Below are positions 2,246-31,087 of a stretch of DNA of 49,919 bases, piece after piece; within the stretch, counting starts at the first letter, position 1; each line of letters starts with the position of its first letter. Below the pieces are notes generated by a model. That model was not told the DNA's origin, ran no database searches, and worked only from the letters and a program-made list of their open reading frames with translations. The stretch spans positions 1 to 49,919 of the forward strand of contig JAFDZQ010000029.1 in the NCBI GenBank assembly GCA_018266895.1, written 5' to 3'. The translations under genes and the position numbers were made by a program. The stretch is from Bacteroidota bacterium (lineage in GTDB: Bacteria > Bacteroidota > Ignavibacteria > Tepidaquicellales > Tepidaquicellaceae).

Positions 2246-2557
2246 ATGTCAGAAAGAAAACGTCATACAGCAGAACAGAAAGTAATGATTCTCAGAGAGT
2301 TGCTTGAGAATAATGTTCCGATCAGCCAGCTTGCTGAGAAATACAGCATACATGTTAATGATATTTATAACTGGAAGAAGAAACTGTTCGAATCGGCAGC
2401 TGATATCTTTAATTTTAAAAGTGATAAACAAACTAATTCAGCAGCTGAAAAGAGAATTGAGATTCTGGAAGAGAAACTAAAGAACAGAGAAGAGGCAATT
2501 ACTTATCTTGTAACTGAAACTATTGAATTAAAAAAAAACATAAATGGGGAGGATTGA
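2246..2557 (+). CDS. IS3-family transposase OrfA (DNA-binding subunit)
   Basis: This 103-residue protein has the usual OrfA layout. An N-terminal helix-turn-helix covers about residues 1-55 (MSERKRHTAEQKVMILRELL, then ISQLAEKYSIHVNDIYNWKK). A leucine-zipper-like coiled coil follows from about residue 68 (EKRIEILEEKLKNREEAITY) and would mediate OrfA/OrfAB multimerisation. A ribosome binding site (AAAGGAGA) lies just before the ATG. The 3' end contains the slippery run at 2533-2539 and overlaps orfB. Confidence 0.9.
   Translation: MSERKRHTAEQKVMILRELLENNVPISQLAEKYSIHVNDIYNWKKKLFESAADIFNFKSDKQTNSAAEKRIEILEEKLKNREEAITYLVTETIELKKNINGED
2533..2539 (+). promoter_or_regulatory. Probable -1 programmed frameshift site (A AAA AAC)
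   Basis: In the orfA frame the codons read TTA AAA AAA AAC, giving the heptamer A AAA AAC in the X XXY YYZ phase. A -1 slip continues as CAT AAA TGG GGA GGA TTG and runs into orfB without a stop. That is the standard way IS3 elements make the OrfAB transposase. Any stimulatory stem-loop downstream was not worked out. Confidence 0.75.
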
Positions 2558-3513
2558 GGGGGCTTTGGGTTGAACCTGATATTCGCGATGACGTGATAAA
2601 CTTTATTTCCATAATTACCAAAAAAACTGAAATTAAAGTAACAAACTTGTTGAAACAGATAGACATAGATTCCGGTAAGTATTATTCCTGGTCAGCCAGG
2701 GAAGGATTGCCGAATTTTCATAACGGCAAGATCCCAAAACAGAACTGGCTATTGGAATGGGAAAAGGAAGCTATTATTAATTACGCAAAGTCTCATTTAG
2801 GAGAAGGTTACAGGCGACTGACTTATATGATGCTTGATGAAGATATAGTAGCAGTCAGTCCTTCATCTACTTACAGAGTGCTTAGGTTTGCAGGACTGCT
2901 CAACAGATGGAATGAAACTAAAACCAACTCTAAAGGAACCGGTTTTATTCAGCCACTGGGACCTAATGAGCATTGGCATGTTGATATTAAATATATAAAT
3001 TTCAAAGGAACGTTTTTATTTTTGATCTCTGTGATTGACGGATACAGCAGATACAATGTTCATCATGAACTAAGACAAAATATGCAGGAGTATGATGTTC
3101 AGCTGACGATCCAGAAGGCAATCGAGAAATATCCGGCTTACAGACCCAGAATAATCTCGGATAACGGATCTCAGTTTATCTGCAAAGATTTTGCCCAGTA
3201 TATGAAGTTTGCAGGTTTGCAGCACATAAAAACTTCAATTGCATATCCGCAGGGTAACGGTAAGATCGAACGTTATCATAGAACAGCAGGTGAAGAATGC
3301 TTATCTAAGTCATCGTTTATAGATCTTGAAGATGCAAGGAAACAGATTGCAGAATTTGTAGAGTTTTATAATACAAAAAGATTACACAGTTCATTACACT
3401 ACTTAACCCCTGAAGATTTTATGCTTGGAAGAATGAAAGAAAAATTAGAAGTGAGAGAAAGCAAATTAACTGAAGCCAGAAAAAACAGAATTGAAATGAG
3501 AAATGCAGTCTAA
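2554..3513 (+). CDS. IS3-family transposase OrfB (DDE integrase core)
   Basis: The 319-residue frame lies in -1 relative to orfA and is probably translated mainly as an OrfAB fusion; the TTG at 2554 is only the first possible start. An HTH_21-like segment (YRRLTYMMLDEDIVAVSPSS) is followed by an rve-type integrase core. The three acidic residues are visible in HWHVDIKYI, RIISDNGSQF and YPQGNGKIERYHRT, with the last two spaced as in DD(35)E enzymes. The C-terminus (FYNTKRLHSSLHYLTPEDF) is also typical of IS3. It would cut and join the element ends. No disruption is seen. Confidence 0.93.
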   Translation: MRGLWVEPDIRDDVINFISIITKKTEIKVTNLLKQIDIDSGKYYSWSAREGLPNFHNGKIPKQNWLLEWEKEAIINYAKSHLGEGYRRLTYMMLDEDIVAVSPSSTYRVLRFAGLLNRWNETKTNSKGTGFIQPLGPNEHWHVDIKYINFKGTFLFLISVIDGYSRYNVHHELRQNMQEYDVQLTIQKAIEKYPAYRPRIISDNGSQFICKDFAQYMKFAGLQHIKTSIAYPQGNGKIERYHRTAGEECLSKSSFIDLEDARKQIAEFVEFYNTKRLHSSLHYLTPEDFMLGRMKEKLEVRESKLTEARKNRIEMRNAV

Positions 3514-5998: not shown

Positions 5999-7285
5999 TC
6001 ATTTTAAAAAAACGAATTGTTTTGTGTCGACCTTCATTTCATCGATCCATAAAGAATAAAAGTAAACCCCACTCGATAAATTATTCGCCTCAAAGAAAAA
6101 TTCATAATTTCCAGTTGGTTGAATTTTGTTGACTAATTTTTTCACCATATTCCCAAGGACATCATAAATTCTTAAAGAAACGAAACCACTTACTGATAAC
6201 TGATATTTAATTGTTGTGCTTGGATTGAATGGATTCGGAAAATTCTGGTATAGCCAATATTTGTTAGGTATTACTTCTGAGTTGTTATATGTACTAACCA
6301 TAATTCCGCGGTTGAAAGTTTTCATTATCATCCCGTTATCTCCAACAACGAACCCCGTGTCTCTATTTAGAAACCAAATGCCCCGCAAATTTGAAAAAGT
6401 ATTACTGACTTGTCTTGACCAATTAGATCCAGCATCAGAAGTAAATAAAATCGTTCCTGAATCCCCTACTACATGGCCTTGTTTAGTATCATGAAAATAT
6501 AAATTTCTGAGAGGTTTGGTATTGTTAGTAGGAACATTATGAAATAAATTCCCGCCATTTGTCGACCTTATTACTATTCCTCTTGTGTCGGTCATGAAAA
6601 TTGTGTCTAAAAAAGGGTTAGACATTTTTCCATCATAGGTCGGTAATCCGGAAATATCTTCCCAGGTACTTCCTCCATTTGCTGTCCTCAAAAAAGATGC
6701 ACCTTTTGTGGCTCCGTTGTTAATATCTTTAAATTCTATATCATAATAATCAACACCTGCTCTGAATGATTCAAACCAGTTTAGTCCGGAATTTGTGGTT
6801 TTAAAAATTATTCCATCTACGTAAAAACTTGGACCAATCATTCCATACTCATTTCCACAAACAAAAAACACATTTTCATTTATCATACTGATTTCTCTGA
6901 GCCAAATAAAAGCCGGAGATCCGATTGGAACTATATCCGAAATACCTGAAGTCCAGTTCACTCCAGCGTTTGTTGACGTCCAAACCATACCTGAAGCTGT
7001 TCCCCCTGCGATTACTCCCATTTTATTTTCATTTAACACAAAACCCGCCTTGAGTGGTGGACCAAAAGTTGTTGCAGTATTAACGATCCAATTCATTCCC
7101 TGATTTGTCGTCTTCAGAATAACCCCATCATCACCTATAATGTAACCGGAATTGTTATTTATGAAATTTATTGCTACATAATTTCTTGTTCCAATGGTTT
7201 GATTAATCCACCCTGTTTGAGATATCAAATTATTGTATGAAATAACGAGAATTAGACTACTTAGAAATAATATTATTGTTTTCAT
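5999..7285 (-). CDS. Secreted YCF48/BNR-type beta-propeller protein with T9SS sorting domain
   Basis: A signal peptide (MKTIILFLSSLILVISYN) leads into repeated modules of the type GYIIGDDGVILKTTNQGMNW, GHVVGDSGTILFTSDAGSNW and GFVVGDNGMIMKTFNRG. These are typical of YCF48-like or BNR propeller proteins, with about six or seven blades over residues 25-335. The last 80 residues are a T9SS sorting domain (YQNFPNPFNPSTTIKYQ, then LSSGVYFYSL, ending KQFVFLK). It is expected at the cell surface or secreted. The ligand is unknown; the YCF48 similarity does not imply a photosystem role here. It lies downstream of the M6-like gene on the same strand, with a terminator between them. Confidence 0.88.
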   Translation of the reverse strand: MKTIILFLSSLILVISYNNLISQTGWINQTIGTRNYVAINFINNNSGYIIGDDGVILKTTNQGMNWIVNTATTFGPPLKAGFVLNENKMGVIAGGTASGMVWTSTNAGVNWTSGISDIVPIGSPAFIWLREISMINENVFFVCGNEYGMIGPSFYVDGIIFKTTNSGLNWFESFRAGVDYYDIEFKDINNGATKGASFLRTANGGSTWEDISGLPTYDGKMSNPFLDTIFMTDTRGIVIRSTNGGNLFHNVPTNNTKPLRNLYFHDTKQGHVVGDSGTILFTSDAGSNWSRQVSNTFSNLRGIWFLNRDTGFVVGDNGMIMKTFNRGIMVSTYNNSEVIPNKYWLYQNFPNPFNPSTTIKYQLSVSGFVSLRIYDVLGNMVKKLVNKIQPTGNYEFFFEANNLSSGVYFYSLWIDEMKVDTKQFVFLK

Positions 7286-24134: not shown

Positions 24135-24947
24135 ATGAAAATGAAGTTTGAATTAAAAAAACGGGAGTACAACTGCGATACGGTAAAACCAACAGATATA
24201 TCAATTCCGTTATTATTCAACGAAGAGCAGCCAAACACATATAATGTCAACAAAGCTACATCCAAAGCATATTCAACAGGTGATTTCATCGGAGATACCA
24301 GACTCGGAGGCGGATGCAATTTTGAAGAATACCGTCTGATACCGCACTGCAACGGGACTCACACTGAATGCGTAGGTCATATTTCTCTGGAAAGAATTTC
24401 CGTAAGCATGACACTGAAAGAATCTTTTATTCCTTCAACTCTTATTACAGTCAATCCCGAAAGAGCATTCGATACAAATGACATTTACATTCCCGAAAAA
24501 AGCGAAGACGATATGATGATAACTAAAGTCATTCTCCAGGAAAAACTTGAATTTGCCGACAGGGATTTTTTTGAAGGTCTGATCATAAGGACGCTTCCCA
24601 ATGACGATTCCAAAAAATACAGAAAATATATGGACTACCTTCCGCCGTTTTTTTCAATTGATGCAATGGAATATATCAGGAAGCTTAATGTAAAACACAT
24701 TCTCATTGACATTCCCTCTGTTGACAGGACATTTGACGACGGAAAGCTTTCGGCGCACCATATTTTCTGGGGAATTCCCATGGGTTCAAGGGAAGCGGAT
24801 GTTAATAATCATTCCCTCAACACAATTACAGAAATGATTTATGTTCCTGATGAAATTGAAGACGGAATTTATTTCACGAATATTCAGATACCAAATTTTG
24901 TCTCTGATGCAGCTCCGAGCAGGGTATTCATTTATAAAGTCAGCTGA
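24135..24947 (+). CDS. Cyclase-family hydrolase, possible kynurenine formamidase
   Basis: The protein belongs to the metal-dependent cyclase/kynurenine formamidase family. The metal motif is seen as H71-C-N-G-T-H76-T-E78 (IPHCNGTHTECVGH), followed by FFSIDAMEYI, LIDIPSVDRTFD and AHHIFWG. Family KynB enzymes have HxGTHxD, so the spacing and last acidic residue differ. At 270 residues it is longer than KynB (about 210). Its place at the head of a run containing kynureninase and kynurenine monooxygenase suggests it hydrolyses N-formylkynurenine to kynurenine, but no dioxygenase gene lies nearby. Another acyl-amide substrate is possible. It is 63 bases upstream of the first Ntn-hydrolase-like gene. 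Confidence 0.78.
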   Translation: MKMKFELKKREYNCDTVKPTDISIPLLFNEEQPNTYNVNKATSKAYSTGDFIGDTRLGGGCNFEEYRLIPHCNGTHTECVGHISLERISVSMTLKESFIPSTLITVNPERAFDTNDIYIPEKSEDDMMITKVILQEKLEFADRDFFEGLIIRTLPNDDSKKYRKYMDYLPPFFSIDAMEYIRKLNVKHILIDIPSVDRTFDDGKLSAHHIFWGIPMGSREADVNNHSLNTITEMIYVPDEIEDGIYFTNIQIPNFVSDAAPSRVFIYKVS

Positions 24948-25010
24948 AATAATTAGAACCGAATTTTGTTTTTCATACAAAGTTAATTTATCAAATAAAA
25001 AAGTATTATA

Positions 25011-26042
25011 ATGGGTCTCGTAAATTCGTTAAAATTCAGTTACAAATCAGGCGCAATAATCACAGATGAGGAATTTTTCATCGGGGGAAGAAGGAGAGTA
25101 CATACCGCAGATAATCTGCAGTCTCTTATTACTGAAGAGATGAGCAATGAATTTGGTCTGGAAGCGGTTTTCGGCGGAGCAGGAAATCTTTCAGTTGTCA
25201 AGGATGTGATAAGCATGATCAAATCAAAACTGCAGTCGGAATATTCCGAATACAAGAGAAGAGGAAGTGAAAACCCCGTGTTCAGAACTGTAGAAGATGT
25301 AGCCAGAATTGCTTTAAGAGTTTTTCAGGATATCTCTCATGAAAAAGTAAGTAAAAAACTTTACGGTCTTCTTGGTTTTACGATCGACGACTTTAACAGA
25401 GGATTTTATTTTTCTGAGGGAAAAAAGATCGAGATAAAAGATGATAAAATTGTTTCCAAGGCAATGGAGATCATAATGATGAAATCATCGAATATGAAGG
25501 ACATTCAGGAAGTGGAAGCAATTATTATAGGAACAGACCAGGAATCAGGATTTAATGCTTTCGATTTTTACGGCGGAATGACACATCTTTATCTTTCAAC
25601 AAGTATTTACAATTCTGTCGGCGCAGGTTCTACAAGCACTTCACTTGACTTTGTAAATATGATTAATTCTCTCGATCTTGACCAGAGAAGAAACGGCATA
25701 GATAAAATACTCGGTCTTGTCGAGCTGGTCAGAATTACAAATCAGTCGGCAATTAAAAACAGCGAGATCGGCGGTTACTATGATATTATATACCTCGACG
25801 GTAACGGAAGAAATCATAACGAAAGATTCTTCGATATTAACGGTGAAAAGACACAGCTCCTTAAGGAAATAGTGGGAGCTTACGATCACAATCTTATTCC
25901 GAAAGATGTCTGTCATGACCTTGCGGAGAAGATCGTTTACAATAAAAAAGAATTCAGCTTTGCTGAAACTGAAGCCGCTTTTTTCAGCAATGCATCCGAC
26001 AAAGACAAGCTTAATATGTTTTTAAGAGGATATAAAGTATAA
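25011..26042 (+). CDS. Proteasome-like Ntn-hydrolase-fold protein, probably inactive paralogue
   Basis: This 343-residue protein aligns from end to end with its neighbour at 26076-27116 (MxxVNxxKF, SGAxxxDE, IGxxR, LEAVFGG; last residues FLRGYKV). The N-terminal half fits a proteasome beta subunit start: a strand, then D19 at the usual Asp17 place, then a GG turn. Two catalytic positions are lost: the residue after Met is Gly instead of Thr, and the position for Lys33 is Asn35 (TADNLQ). A VGAGST motif corresponds to GSGS of proteasome subunits. An insertion of about 90-100 residues follows residue 60. It is likely a structural partner of the next gene product, like alpha or dead beta subunits, but that is inference. 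It is cytoplasmic. Confidence 0.7.
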   Translation: MGLVNSLKFSYKSGAIITDEEFFIGGRRRVHTADNLQSLITEEMSNEFGLEAVFGGAGNLSVVKDVISMIKSKLQSEYSEYKRRGSENPVFRTVEDVARIALRVFQDISHEKVSKKLYGLLGFTIDDFNRGFYFSEGKKIEIKDDKIVSKAMEIIMMKSSNMKDIQEVEAIIIGTDQESGFNAFDFYGGMTHLYLSTSIYNSVGAGSTSTSLDFVNMINSLDLDQRRNGIDKILGLVELVRITNQSAIKNSEIGGYYDIIYLDGNGRNHNERFFDINGEKTQLLKEIVGAYDHNLIPKDVCHDLAEKIVYNKKEFSFAETEAAFFSNASDKDKLNMFLRGYKV

Positions 26043-26075
26043 ATTTTCAGTTAAAAAATTTTTTAATACACAATC

Positions 26076-27116
26076 ATGACTGTCGTAAATGCTATAAAAT
26101 TCAATTCTCATTCCGGGGCTATGTGCTGCGATGAGCAGACTACTATCGGTTCGGTAAGAATCATGTTGTCATCGGACAAAATACAAAAAATAATTCCTAC
26201 AGTGATCCGTGAAAATGTAAAGCTTGAAGCCGTGTACGGCGGAACGGGTACGACTGCTATCGGAGATGAAGTAAGAAAATCAATCAAGCAGAAACTGCTG
26301 AAAGAATTTGAAATAATGCGGAATAAATCATCTGAAATGTCGAAAAATTTCAAGACAATTGATGAGATCTGCAGGATGGGATTTGAATCAATGCTTGCGG
26401 TAAAGCACAGGCATATTAATGATATTGTAAAAGGCTATTTTAATTTTGACACAAATGATTTTACTCAGGGATTTTATCATAAAGACAAGGATGAAAAGAT
26501 CGAAATTACGCAGAAGGATCTTAAGGAAAAAGTTTATGACCTTATGAACTGGAGGAATGCAGAAGAAGTCGATTCGGTTTTTCTGAACGCCGCAATAATC
26601 TGCGGCTTTGATTCGAATGAGGAGTTTAAGATATGCAAACTCTCCCTGAAGACTGAAATGAATATGGAGATGGCAGGTTCAATTTTTGAAACTGTCGGCT
26701 CAGGTTCGGATTCCGCACAGATAATCTTTTCCGATTATGTTAGCAGCAAAACACTTGACGAAAGAAGAAACAGCATTGACAGGGTCGAAGGAATGATACA
26801 GCTTTTAAGGGCTACTATCGCCGCGGCTAAATTCAATATGGGTGTCGGAGGATATTTCAACATTCTTATCTTTGATGCAAAGGAAAATGAACCCGACAAA
26901 AGGTTTGTCGAAATATTTGACAACAGGGCAAAGCTTGCAAGCGAGATAGTTCATTCTTATTACAATGAATTCATATCGTATGAAGATACTTACGAACTGA
27001 TAAACGAGCTTATTTACAACAGACAGAAATCCTTTGAGGAGGCGAACGAAGCATTTCTGAAAGCATCATTAAATCCCGTTAAAATGGGAAAATTTCTCAG
27101 AGGCTATAAAATTTAA
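26076..27116 (+). CDS. Proteasome-like Ntn-hydrolase with intact Thr/Asp/Lys set
   Basis: After removal of the initiator Met the protein would begin TVVNAIKFNSHSG, with Thr1 as possible nucleophile. Asp18 (CCDEQTTIG) and Lys34 (LSSDKIQKI) fall one residue beyond Asp17 and Lys33 of HslV and proteasome beta subunits. A GGTG turn follows at 55-58, VGSGSDSA near 207 matches the conserved GSGS segment, and GVGGYFNILIFD near 256 matches the SGG-VNLY strand. At 346 residues it is about 100 longer than usual because of an inserted helical region (about 65-165). No propeptide is visible. No AAA+ unfoldase lies in the window. It lies 33 bases after its paralogue and 27 before kynureninase. An amidase rather than a protease role is possible. 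Confidence 0.75.
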   Translation: MTVVNAIKFNSHSGAMCCDEQTTIGSVRIMLSSDKIQKIIPTVIRENVKLEAVYGGTGTTAIGDEVRKSIKQKLLKEFEIMRNKSSEMSKNFKTIDEICRMGFESMLAVKHRHINDIVKGYFNFDTNDFTQGFYHKDKDEKIEITQKDLKEKVYDLMNWRNAEEVDSVFLNAAIICGFDSNEEFKICKLSLKTEMNMEMAGSIFETVGSGSDSAQIIFSDYVSSKTLDERRNSIDRVEGMIQLLRATIAAAKFNMGVGGYFNILIFDAKENEPDKRFVEIFDNRAKLASEIVHSYYNEFISYEDTYELINELIYNRQKSFEEANEAFLKASLNPVKMGKFLRGYKI

Positions 27117-27143
27117 ACTGATCTAAATACAAACCATCAAATA

Positions 27144-28442
27144 TTGTTGAAAGAATACAGTTCAGACAAACAGTTTGCAGCCGAAGCGGATGAAAATGAT
27201 CCTTTAAAAAATTTCCGTGAAAAATTTTTAATTCCCGTAAGACCTGACGGTGAAAAAGTAATTTACCTTGCGGGAAATTCTCTCGGTCTTCAGCCGAAGT
27301 CTCTAAGATCATACGTTGAGCAGGAATTAAAAGACTGGGAAACGCTTGGCGTGGAAGGTCATGTTCATGCAAAGAATCCGTGGCTGCCTTATCATGAATT
27401 GCTGACGGATAAAACTGCTAAGATAACCGGCGCTAAACCGGAGGAAGTAATTAACATGAATTCACTTACTTCAAATCTTCATTTTCTTTTTATTTCATTT
27501 TACCGTCCGGATAAAAAGCGTTATAAAATTTTAATTGAGTCGAATGCTTTCCCTTCGGATCATTATGCGGTTCAGTCACAGATTAATTTTCATTCAATGA
27601 TTGCGGGAACTGACTGCTTTGATGCAGGGAATGCTTTGATTGAAATGAAACCGCGGAAAGGAGAAGACAGGATAAGAACTGAAGACATAGAAGATCTTAT
27701 TGAAAAAGACGGTGAATCCATTGCCTTAGTCTGGTTTGCCGGAGTAAATTATTATTCGGGACAGGCATTTGACATTGAAAGAATTACCAAAGCAGCTCAT
27801 AAAAAAGGATGTACCGCCGGATTTGATCTTGCCCATTCCGCAGGGAATATGCTGCTTAAACTTCACGAATGGAACGTTGACTTTGCCGTCTGGTGCAATT
27901 ATAAATATCTTAACGGCGGACCCGGGGCAATAGGCGGGGCTTTTGTTCATGAGAAACATCTGAGAGACAATACGCTTCCGAAATTTCTCGGCTGGTGGGG
28001 ACACGACAAGAAAACAAGATTTCTTATGGATCACAGATACATTCCGATCCCGACTGCTGAAAGCTGGCAGCTGAGTAATCCGCCTATTTTGCAACTTGCT
28101 GCGCTTAATGCTTCTCTTGATATTTTCGAAGAAGCGGGAATGGAAAACTTAAGGATCAAAAGCGAAAAACTTACGGCATATCTTGAATTTCTCCTGAAAG
28201 AAAAAAATGATAATAATATTGAAATCATAACTCCTTCTGAAAAAAATGAAAGAGGATGTCAGCTTTCTCTCAGATTAAGATCCGGGGGAAGAGATACTTA
28301 TAACAGACTCATAGGTGAAGGAGTTATCTGCGACTGGAGAGAACCTGATGTTATAAGAGTTGCGCCGGTTCCTCTTTATAATACTTTTGAAGAAGTCAGA
28401 AATTTTTCCGGGATTTTGCACGGAGATAAATTATATTTTTAA
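27144..28442 (+). CDS. kynU: Kynureninase
   Basis: The PLP enzyme cleaves kynurenine or 3-hydroxykynurenine to (hydroxy)anthranilate and alanine. The start is a TTG 27 bases after the Ntn gene. Key parts are visible: YLAGNSLGLQPKSL, GHVHAKNPW, NMNSLTSNLHFLF, Asp228 in GFDLAHSAGN, and the PLP lysine Lys254 in WCNYKYLNGGPG. The length, 432 residues, matches the family. Together with the next gene it forms the kynurenine to 3-hydroxyanthranilate branch. Confidence 0.96.
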   Translation: MLKEYSSDKQFAAEADENDPLKNFREKFLIPVRPDGEKVIYLAGNSLGLQPKSLRSYVEQELKDWETLGVEGHVHAKNPWLPYHELLTDKTAKITGAKPEEVINMNSLTSNLHFLFISFYRPDKKRYKILIESNAFPSDHYAVQSQINFHSMIAGTDCFDAGNALIEMKPRKGEDRIRTEDIEDLIEKDGESIALVWFAGVNYYSGQAFDIERITKAAHKKGCTAGFDLAHSAGNMLLKLHEWNVDFAVWCNYKYLNGGPGAIGGAFVHEKHLRDNTLPKFLGWWGHDKKTRFLMDHRYIPIPTAESWQLSNPPILQLAALNASLDIFEEAGMENLRIKSEKLTAYLEFLLKEKNDNNIEIITPSEKNERGCQLSLRLRSGGRDTYNRLIGEGVICDWREPDVIRVAPVPLYNTFEEVRNFSGILHGDKLYF

Positions 28443-28519: not shown

Positions 28520-29881
28520 GTGAAAAAAATAACAATAGTCGGAGCAGGACTTGCAGGTTCACTTCTCTCTGTATACCTTGCAAAAAAGGGATTTGAAGTC
28601 AGTGTTTATGAAAGACGACCGGATATGCGCAAATCAGGAGCAGCAGGAGGCAAATCCATAAACCTGGCGCTGTCGACACGGGGCATTCATGCTTTAAAGG
28701 AAGTTGGATTGTACGATGAGATCAGGAAGATTGCAATTCCGATGTACGGAAGAATGATCCATCTGGTCGAAGGTGAACTTTCATTTCAGAGATACGGCAA
28801 AGACGATTCCGAATATATCAATGCTGTTTCGAGAGCCGACCTTAATAAATCACTTATGGATCTTGCAGAGAAGAATCCCGGGGTGAAGATACTTTTTAAT
28901 CAGCGCTGCAGCGGAATTGATTTTAAGAACGGTGAAATAAATTTCCGTAATGAGCTGACAGGAGAGACTTCGCTTGTTAAGTCTGACAGGATTATTGCAA
29001 CAGACGGCGCAACTTCCGCTGTAAGATTAGAAATGCAGAAGATCCCGCGATTCAATTTTGCACAGCATTATGAAAATTACGGTTATAAGGAACTGATGAT
29101 TCCGTCTGGAAAAGACGGCAGTTTTCTTATGGATAAAAATGCGCTGCATATCTGGCCACGAGGTTCTTTTATGCTTATCGCGCTTCCAAATCCTGACGGG
29201 AGTTTTACATGTACTTTATTCCTGGCATATGACCTTTCTCTCGGAGAAGAAAACAGTTTTGAATATCTCAGTACGGAAGAAAGAGCCGATGCATTTTTCA
29301 AAAAACAATTTCCGGATACATACGAAATGATTCCGGATTTCAAAAAAGATTTTTTTCATAATCCTACCGGAAGTCTGATGACTGTCAAATGCTATCCCTG
29401 GATCATAGAAGACAGGGTCGCATTGCTGGGAGATGCATGTCATGCAATTGTGCCTTTTTTCGGACAGGGAATGAATGCTGCATTTGAAGACTGTACTTGC
29501 CTGAATGAATGTATTGAAAAATACGGTACGGACTGGAAAAAAATATTCAGCGAGTATCAGGAACTGCGCAAAATTAATTCGGATGCCATAGCCGATCTTG
29601 CTCAGGAAAATTTTATAGAAATGAGAGATCTGGTATCAGACAGAGATTTTTTACTAAGGAAAAAAATTGAGACCGAACTTTATAAAAAATACCCGGATAC
29701 ATTTGTTCCTAAGTATTCGATGGTTACATTCAGCAGAATTCCGTATTCCGTTGCCTTAAAGAGAGGCAGGATTCAGGAAGAGATTCTGAAAGAATTAAGC
29801 AAAGGAGCCGAAAGCGGTGAAAGTTTTGATAAAGATAAAGCTGATAAACTGATAAAGGAAAAACTCGGTAAAATATTTTAA
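28520..29881 (+). CDS. kmo: Kynurenine 3-monooxygenase
   Basis: The FAD-dependent hydroxylase converts kynurenine to 3-hydroxykynurenine with NADPH and O2. The start is a GTG at 28520. The Rossmann FAD site is IVGAGLAGSLLSVYLAKKG followed by VYERRPD; the second FAD motif is LLGDACHAIVPFFGQGMN, with Asp305. GGKSINLALSTRG near residue 44 is typical of KMO. At 453 residues it fits bacterial KMO, and its C-terminus shows no clear membrane anchor. It is the last recognisable pathway gene in this run. Confidence 0.95.
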   Translation: MKKITIVGAGLAGSLLSVYLAKKGFEVSVYERRPDMRKSGAAGGKSINLALSTRGIHALKEVGLYDEIRKIAIPMYGRMIHLVEGELSFQRYGKDDSEYINAVSRADLNKSLMDLAEKNPGVKILFNQRCSGIDFKNGEINFRNELTGETSLVKSDRIIATDGATSAVRLEMQKIPRFNFAQHYENYGYKELMIPSGKDGSFLMDKNALHIWPRGSFMLIALPNPDGSFTCTLFLAYDLSLGEENSFEYLSTEERADAFFKKQFPDTYEMIPDFKKDFFHNPTGSLMTVKCYPWIIEDRVALLGDACHAIVPFFGQGMNAAFEDCTCLNECIEKYGTDWKKIFSEYQELRKINSDAIADLAQENFIEMRDLVSDRDFLLRKKIETELYKKYPDTFVPKYSMVTFSRIPYSVALKRGRIQEEILKELSKGAESGESFDKDKADKLIKEKLGKIF

Positions 29882-29941: not shown

Positions 29942-31087
29942 ATGTTTGAAGAATTTGTACAAAATAAAATTGACCGCGAAAACGAGATCATTTTCAGTCT
30001 GAGCGAAATCAATAAGGAACAGATTGTAAAGAGCGGTTTGTCGGATTTTACAAAAAATTATTTTTTAATTGAATTCGATCCGCATTCGGGCAGGGATGAG
30101 ATATTGGAACAAATTTCGAAGTCAAACAAACTATATTTCAATTACGCGATCCGTCCAAAATGGACTTTGCAGACATTTCTGTTTAAGAATTTCGAATCAC
30201 GTCCGCCTAACGATTTACTCAATAAGCTTAACTATTTTCCTTTTTATAAATTTTATTCGGAATCAATACAGAGTTTTATAAATGAAAGTTCTCCTATATT
30301 TGTCACAAAGACAGAACTGAGTTCTATTATTGACAGCACAAATAATGCATTATACGGAAAACTGACAAATGACATTTCAAATGTCAAAATAAAGAATTTT
30401 TTCCTTCAGATCTTTTTACTTAAATATGAGACGGAAGCAAATTACAATCTTGAATCTTCTGTGCCGTATTCATTTATAAAGATCTTTCTGGAAGATAAAT
30501 CCTATCACAGTCTTGCTGATAAATTCACCGGAATAAAAGATCTGTCCGAAGAATCCGGGATAAGTTTAAAAGATATAATAAAAATCCTGACTGACAAATA
30601 CAGCTATCCGGTAAAGGAAGAAACTTCTTTAGCAGATTTATCCGGAAATAATTCTTTTATACCGGAAAAAGAAAATGTTATTACCATAGAACTGCCTTTA
30701 GAAACTGAAATGCCTGTTGCTTCTGAAAAACCCGTTGAATTAAAAATTGCAGTGGAAAAGGAGAAGATTTATTCCGAAGAACTTTCAAATGCACAGGAGA
30801 AAAGTACTGTAACTAATGCTGATATCGAAAGGAATAATTCAGCTAAGATTAAAAACTTAAAGGATTTATTTGATGAGAAGCAGAGTGAAAAAATCCTTGA
30901 CAGGATTTATGATTCCGACATAATGAAAAGAGAAAAGTCTTTTAATAAATTAAGCAATTATAAAACATGGTTTGAGGCATCAAATCATCTTAAGGAAGTA
31001 TTCCTTTCAAACAGAGTGGACATATACAATAAAGATGTGGTAAAATTCGTAAATATTCTAAATGATTATTTTAAAAGTAAGGAGTGA
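29942..31087 (+). CDS. Hypothetical protein upstream of obgE
   Basis: The 381-residue product has no signal peptide and no motif I recognise. The N-terminal 240 residues are mixed alpha/beta with many aromatic residues (YFNYAIRPKWTLQTFLFKNF). A low-complexity Glu/Pro/Val linker spans about 235-290 (ETEMPVASEKPVELKI), and a helical C-terminal region of 90 residues follows (IYDSDIMKREKSFNKLSNYK). The layout suggests two domains joined by a flexible linker. It ends 3 bases before the obgE start, so the two are probably translated together. Confidence 0.65.
   Translation: MFEEFVQNKIDRENEIIFSLSEINKEQIVKSGLSDFTKNYFLIEFDPHSGRDEILEQISKSNKLYFNYAIRPKWTLQTFLFKNFESRPPNDLLNKLNYFPFYKFYSESIQSFINESSPIFVTKTELSSIIDSTNNALYGKLTNDISNVKIKNFFLQIFLLKYETEANYNLESSVPYSFIKIFLEDKSYHSLADKFTGIKDLSEESGISLKDIIKILTDKYSYPVKEETSLADLSGNNSFIPEKENVITIELPLETEMPVASEKPVELKIAVEKEKIYSEELSNAQEKSTVTNADIERNNSAKIKNLKDLFDEKQSEKILDRIYDSDIMKREKSFNKLSNYKTWFEASNHLKEVFLSNRVDIYNKDVVKFVNILNDYFKSKE

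Follow-up and report, generated by a model that had tools for sequence, protein, structure and literature searches.

Genes at the locus

The window, that is, the whole stretch of 49,919 nucleotides analysed here, carries two adjacent genes, together referred to as the A-B pair, which lie between genes of probable kynurenine degradation. The genes of this neighbourhood are as follows.

24135..24947, forward strand: cyclase-family (PF04199) protein, probable kynurenine formamidase (neighbour)
25011..26042, forward strand: subunit A, proteasome-like paralogue without the Thr nucleophile and without the Lys (343 residues, MGLVN...)
26076..27116, forward strand: subunit B, proteasome-like paralogue that retains Thr/Asp/Lys (346 residues, MTVVN...)
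27144..28442, forward strand: kynureninase (neighbour)
28520..29881, forward strand: FAD monooxygenase, probable kynurenine 3-monooxygenase (neighbour)

The preliminary description of this DNA had reported two adjacent open reading frames of 343 and 346 residues, and their coordinates were matched exactly. A and B are paralogues that align end to end and are 30% identical (353 columns, E=1e-55). In the window, an in-frame stop codon lies 4 codons 5' of the ATG of A and another lies 3 codons 5' of the ATG of B, with no start codon between in either frame; in the relative G007 a stop is found immediately 5' of the ATG of A. Because the stops lie just upstream and leave no alternative start, A begins with MG or MA and B begins with MT, so there is no room for a propeptide. 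The N-termini of both proteins are thus nearly forced.

Some other features of the window were also recorded. Positions 1421-2176 encode an M6-metalloprotease-like fragment (PF05547, E=2e-6), 3' of which lie IS3-family-type transposase genes (2246-2557 and 2554-3513); this arrangement suggests that the M6-metalloprotease-like gene was cut by an IS3-type insertion. The open reading frames at 17-595 and 5999-7285 end in C-terminal domains of the "NFPNPFNPSTxIKY" type, which we take to be typical type IX secretion sorting signals. Moreover, a 381-residue protein encoded 5' of obgE (29942-31087) has no database match and is 45–54% identical among relatives, while its neighbouring genes are at 70–80%.

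Predicted fold and family searches

We modelled A and B as monomers with AlphaFold2 from 12 aligned rows. The models reached a pLDDT of 84.1 and a pTM of 0.82 for A, and a pLDDT of 82.7 and a pTM of 0.82 for B. Compared with the PDB by Foldseek (E<=0.001), A gave 971 matches and B gave 921, and the top 50 for each are all 20S subunits or Anbu, with a probability of 1.00. Target TM-scores are mostly 0.55–0.75. Identities are 6–17%, and it is for this reason that sequence searches give so little for these proteins. In a fold search of a viral structure library the top match was a phage protein annotated as HslV, and none was closer. The models thus support the view that A and B share a proteasome beta-like fold, with an S1–S11 core and helices H1–H4, as had been proposed earlier. 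However, residues 22–31 of B, the loop before Lys35, are modelled poorly (pLDDT <50), so the geometry of Thr, Asp and Lys in B is not established by the model.

Sequence profiles gave much less. The preliminary description had pointed to the Pfam Proteasome profile PF00227 as a check, and with a cut-off of E<=10 none of the 14 A/B members matched it. No model in Pfam, NCBIfam or PADLOC names either protein, and neither a proteasome nor a defence assignment resulted. Searches of the PDB by sequence profile returned chance matches only (a ribosomal protein, a DNA polymerase and similar chains). Since neither PF00227 nor any PDB chain is matched by sequence, the fold is known from models predicted with 12 sequences. 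The only sequence-level tie to known families is PHROG 1040 (phrog_1040, "peptidase HslV family"), which matches residues 1–294 of B weakly (E=8.3e-6), though over its full length, and 4 of the 14 aligned members. Comparison of the A/B profile by hhalign with HslV and with orphan homologues was not significant, with shallow profiles that make it underpowered. An hmmsearch match (E=1e-5) to the open reading frame at 1421-2176 covered 40 residues of the M6-metalloprotease-like fragment, and we discarded it as a chance hit; a warning applies here, that isolated hmmsearch scores of 5–11 bits carry little meaning.

Catalytic residues of B and their counterparts in A

We then compared the positions expected to take part in catalysis among the seven orthologous pairs (see Distribution and evolution).

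26079..26081, forward strand: B, Thr2, presumed N-terminal nucleophile once Met is removed (7/7 orthologues)
26130..26132, forward strand: B, Asp19, corresponding to proteasome Asp17 (7/7 in B and also 7/7 in A)
26178..26180, forward strand: B, Lys35, corresponding to proteasome Lys33 (7/7)
26238..26249, forward strand: B, GGTG turn, residues 55–58, probable oxyanion-hole region (by motif alignment to HslV)
26694..26708, forward strand: B, VGSGS motif, residues 207–211 (sequence)
25014..25016, forward strand: A, Gly2 replacing the nucleophile (Gly/Ala in 7/7 orthologues)
25113..25115, forward strand: A, Asn35 replacing the catalytic Lys (Asn/Cys/Ser in 7/7)
25623..25625, forward strand: A, Ala205 replacing Ser of GSG (Ala in 6/7)

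In B, Thr2, Asp19, Lys35, the glycines 55–56, Gly58 and Ser209 of GSG are invariant in all seven pairs. The same columns of A hold Gly or Ala (7/7), Asp (7/7), Asn, Cys or Ser (7/7), the GG and following G (7/7), and Ala (6/7). Numbered from Thr = 1, the Asp and Lys of B fall at 18 and 34, and the HslV of a close relative has 1/17/33, which bears out the reported spacing of "canonical plus one". Such shifts are tolerated elsewhere: BPH, a characterised relative, has Lys37, according to PMC5777263.

As judged from the alignment, A has lost three catalysis-specific residues and kept the Asp and the structural glycines. Gly for Thr and Asn for Lys had been noticed in the preliminary description, and both residues are missing from all seven A orthologues; the Ala at the Ser of VGSGS is a further change that it did not contain. 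Loss of Thr among close homologues would have spoken against the whole idea, and B keeps its Thr in 7/7. The proposed split into catalytic and non-catalytic subunits is thus borne out as a sequence pattern conserved in all seven pairs, which is one mark of a heteromeric active/inactive type. B carries the Thr, Asp and Lys that characterise the broad proteasome-like family (PMC8665760), namely T2, D19 and K35 in 7/7; A keeps the Asp of this set but has neither the Thr nor the Lys, and would belong to the family by its fold and its paralogy to B only.

Distribution and evolution

Within the family to which the window belongs (Ignavibacteria-type), 7 of 29 genomes, representing 5 of 16 genera, have an A-B pair, always in the order A then B. 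The two genes are adjacent in every carrier, even in the two whose neighbourhood differs, and in one carrier they overlap by 4 bp. The relatives that have a name are MAGs under the titles Ignavibacteria or Bacteroidetes bacterium. No real A or B was found outside the family in 294 genomes of the class and 395 sampled genomes of the phylum, where partial matches with E of 0.002–0.004 were rejected as chance. Plasmids and phages searched by tblastn, and viral contigs searched with the conserved patterns, also contained none.

In the tree, the A clade and the B clade are each monophyletic with 100/100 support, which points to one duplication and role split before the carriers radiated. For both A and B, dN is 0.06–0.22 while synonymous differences are near saturation (pS 0.70–0.77), and kynureninase is similar. 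Strong purifying selection therefore acts on both A and B, and A is being maintained as a protein rather than decaying as a spare copy. When presence of the pair was mapped on the kynureninase tree, at least three changes were needed, so it has been repeatedly gained or lost.

Insertions and comparison with known proteasome-like proteins

B is far longer than HslV, and the extra length was placed from the model and from length comparison.

26442..26588, forward strand: B, insertion after helix H2 at the pore-loop site, residues 123–171, about 50 residues (by model secondary structure and length comparison)
26919..27113, forward strand: B, C-terminal helical extension, residues 282–346 (by model and length comparison)

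The preliminary description had spoken of one insertion of about 100 residues. Extra length does exist, but relative to HslV it is divided into three parts: about 77 residues separate the GG turn from GSG, which correspond to longer H1/H2 plus the pore-loop insertion; another 18 follow GSG, ahead of the last core strand; and 72 make up a helical C-terminal tail. In the model, helices H1/H2 (residues 60–82 and 95–122) are present and long, and residues 224–235 form an insertion between H3 and H4. Extra sequence at these two sites, the pore loop and the H3/H4 interval, is expected to hinder ring or double-ring assembly (PMC8665760). With the C-terminal extension added, a canonical HslV-type double ring appears doubtful from the model, and the insertions of B could instead form a lid or provide other interfaces.

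The pair was compared with five known types. First, HslV (ClpQ) resembles B in a triad spacing within one residue, in the GG turn and GSG, and in the match to the phage HslV-family profile. However, HslV is compact (about 170–190 residues, without insertions), A and B are twice as long and have no PF00227 match, and HslU is absent from the locus, with no AAA+ unfoldase among the neighbours; an ordinary HslV is encoded elsewhere in the same genome. Indeed, none of the A-B neighbourhoods examined contains an AAA+ unfoldase gene, as the preliminary description had said of the partner gene. Second, Anbu is alike in fold (5nyg, 5nyj and 5nyw are among the PDB matches of B), in having no AAA+ partner and in a C-terminal helical extension; it differs in that A-B lacks a PF00227 match and consists of two paralogues, one of them inactive by its residues. 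The Anbu operon with transglutaminase, ATP-grasp and Alpha-E, described as frequent rather than universal in PMC5666114, is not seen, and the neighbours of A-B are kynurenine-pathway or crotonase genes. Third, the 20S alpha and beta subunits, with the inactive beta subunits of eukaryotes, likewise comprise catalytic and non-catalytic paralogues of one fold, but A and B reach only 6–17% identity to them over the fold alignments, and their models have no alpha-type N-terminal helix.

Fourth, PMI-3 and PMI-4, compared here by their published description, share with the pair the fold, the Thr/Asp/Lys and the absence of a propeptide and of an AAA+ neighbour. They are defined by insertions that follow H2 and that lie between H3 and H4 (PMC8665760), and the B model shows both. 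The pair differs in its tandem inactive partner, its long helical C-terminal tail and its range of one bacterial family. That the pair is a divergent member of PMI-4 or PMI-3 (Fuchs et al. 2021) we consider rather unlikely, although it is the strongest of the alternatives. Besides the similar predicted insertion sites, PMI-4 has been reported from Bacteroidetes (PMC8665760), and L117, an orphan protein of the same order that matches PF00227 (E=2.4e-6), carries a similar-looking "GLTLSDF" insertion at the corresponding site. Against this, hhalign and hmmsearch comparisons with L117 are not significant (P 0.02–0.28; 46–290 of 1000 shuffles did as well), the membership of L117 in PMI-4 is itself unproven, and a tandem inactive partner is absent from Fuchs et al. 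2021, whose search kept sequences with conserved active sites (PMC8665760). Searches for a PMI-type family seeded with L117 recovered no relative from plasmids, phages, viral contigs, 296 genomes of the phylum or its own order. Orphan proteasome-like proteins elsewhere in the phylum are L115 (genome G182), L117 (G033), L118 (G099) and L112 (G017); L115 and L118 start with apparent signal peptides, which are unusual in the superfamily.

Fifth, connectase is likewise a proteasome-like Ntn enzyme without an AAA+ partner, but it is without H1/H2 and carries a two-helix insertion between S3 and S4. B, in whose model H1/H2 are present and long, does not fit that description. B might still be a stand-alone, substrate-specific Ntn hydrolase or transpeptidase, a connectase-like monomer or small oligomer, with A kept separately, for example for binding or regulation. 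The insertions at ring-interface sites and the missing AAA+ neighbour are consistent with this, as is the fact that connectase is a monomeric ligase (PMC8665760). We regard it as improbable, because the long H1/H2 set B apart from connectase and the strict tandem co-retention in 7/7 genomes, at two kinds of locus, argues for a joint function.

Genomic context

Five of the seven carriers have the same arrangement as the window, with the cyclase-family gene (probable formamidase), A, B, kynureninase and FAD monooxygenase on one strand with short gaps; in the window the gaps from the formamidase-like gene to A, from A to B and from B to kynureninase are 63, 33 and 27 bp. In G007 and G019 the pair lies 3' of a crotonase-family gene at 4–15 bp, and kynureninase is located elsewhere in the genome. 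The slot between the formamidase-like gene and kynureninase (24135-28442 in the window; compared with L057–L065) varies within the family: it may hold the A-B pair or a gene for a THAP4-like haem-binding barrel protein, or stand empty.

The pair may serve the kynurenine (tryptophan-degradation/NAD) pathway, by processing, activating or removing an enzyme or by hydrolysing an amide intermediate. The position inside the operon in five carriers is in line with this. All seven carriers also have kynureninase and tryptophan dioxygenase, and the pair is missing from all 15 genomes that lack kynureninase (Fisher p=0.002, with relatedness not corrected for). However, 7 of 14 kynureninase genomes lack the pair, several of them having the same operon with the slot empty or filled by another gene; two genomes keep it beside the crotonase-family gene, far from kynureninase; and the operon slot may be merely permissive. 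We do not prefer this role, since half of the kynurenine genomes do without the pair and the slot is variable; the association is suggestive, and the role itself seems to us unlikely.

Proposed function of the A-B pair

The account we favour, and hold to be moderately probable, is that A and B are two subunits of one Thr-type proteasome-like Ntn hydrolase, with B as the catalytic subunit and A as its non-catalytic partner. It is carried by the paralogy, the predicted fold, the catalytic loss confined to A, the tandem co-retention and the purifying selection. We infer that the initiator Met of B would be removed, exposing Thr2, which would act as the nucleophile with Asp19 and Lys35 activating it, while the GGTG turn would form the oxyanion hole. 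By analogy with the inactive beta or alpha subunits of 20S proteasomes, A would pair with B, probably shaping the chamber or controlling access to it. Because A and B have no propeptide and no dedicated AAA+ unfoldase is adjacent, the enzyme probably works alone, on small, unfolded or specific substrates.

It is very unlikely that the fold resemblance is real but A and B are non-enzymatic structural or binding proteins: the low-confidence loop by the active site would allow it, but T, D, K and Ser are kept in B, and exactly T, K and mostly Ser are lost in A.

Under the two-subunit account, the pair might represent an AAA+-independent bacterial hydrolase outside the 20S alpha/beta lineage, with obligate catalytic and non-catalytic paralogues and insertions of its own, a separate invention of the division into active and inactive subunits and possibly not a ring; this extension is tentative, and we lean slightly against it.

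Significance

The preliminary description had suggested a new family. This stands in so far as no Pfam or NCBIfam model covers the group, but the proteasome-like superfamily had already gained 22 subfamilies in 2021 through the work of Fuchs, Alva and Lupas, among them PMI-3 and PMI-4 with similar insertions (PMC8665760). By its sequence, then, the A-B group is invisible to these databases and appears to join an already diverse superfamily. A bacterial tandem active/inactive pair of this type is not described in PMC8665760 or, by term search, in PMC5666114, PMC5777263 and PMC13022661, and the last gives a single beta subunit for nearly all bacterial core particles.

The superfamily's new branches are mostly without any function, and A-B adds a group to it, one in which both products of a single duplication have stayed next to each other while the family radiated. 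Catalysis has typically been lost in the alpha subunits and in several eukaryotic beta subunits, which are known by this trait. If the reading of A and B as catalytic and non-catalytic partners is true, the pair would be a second, bacterial case, and a simple two-gene system would allow one to test why inactive subunits are retained in a compartmental protease.
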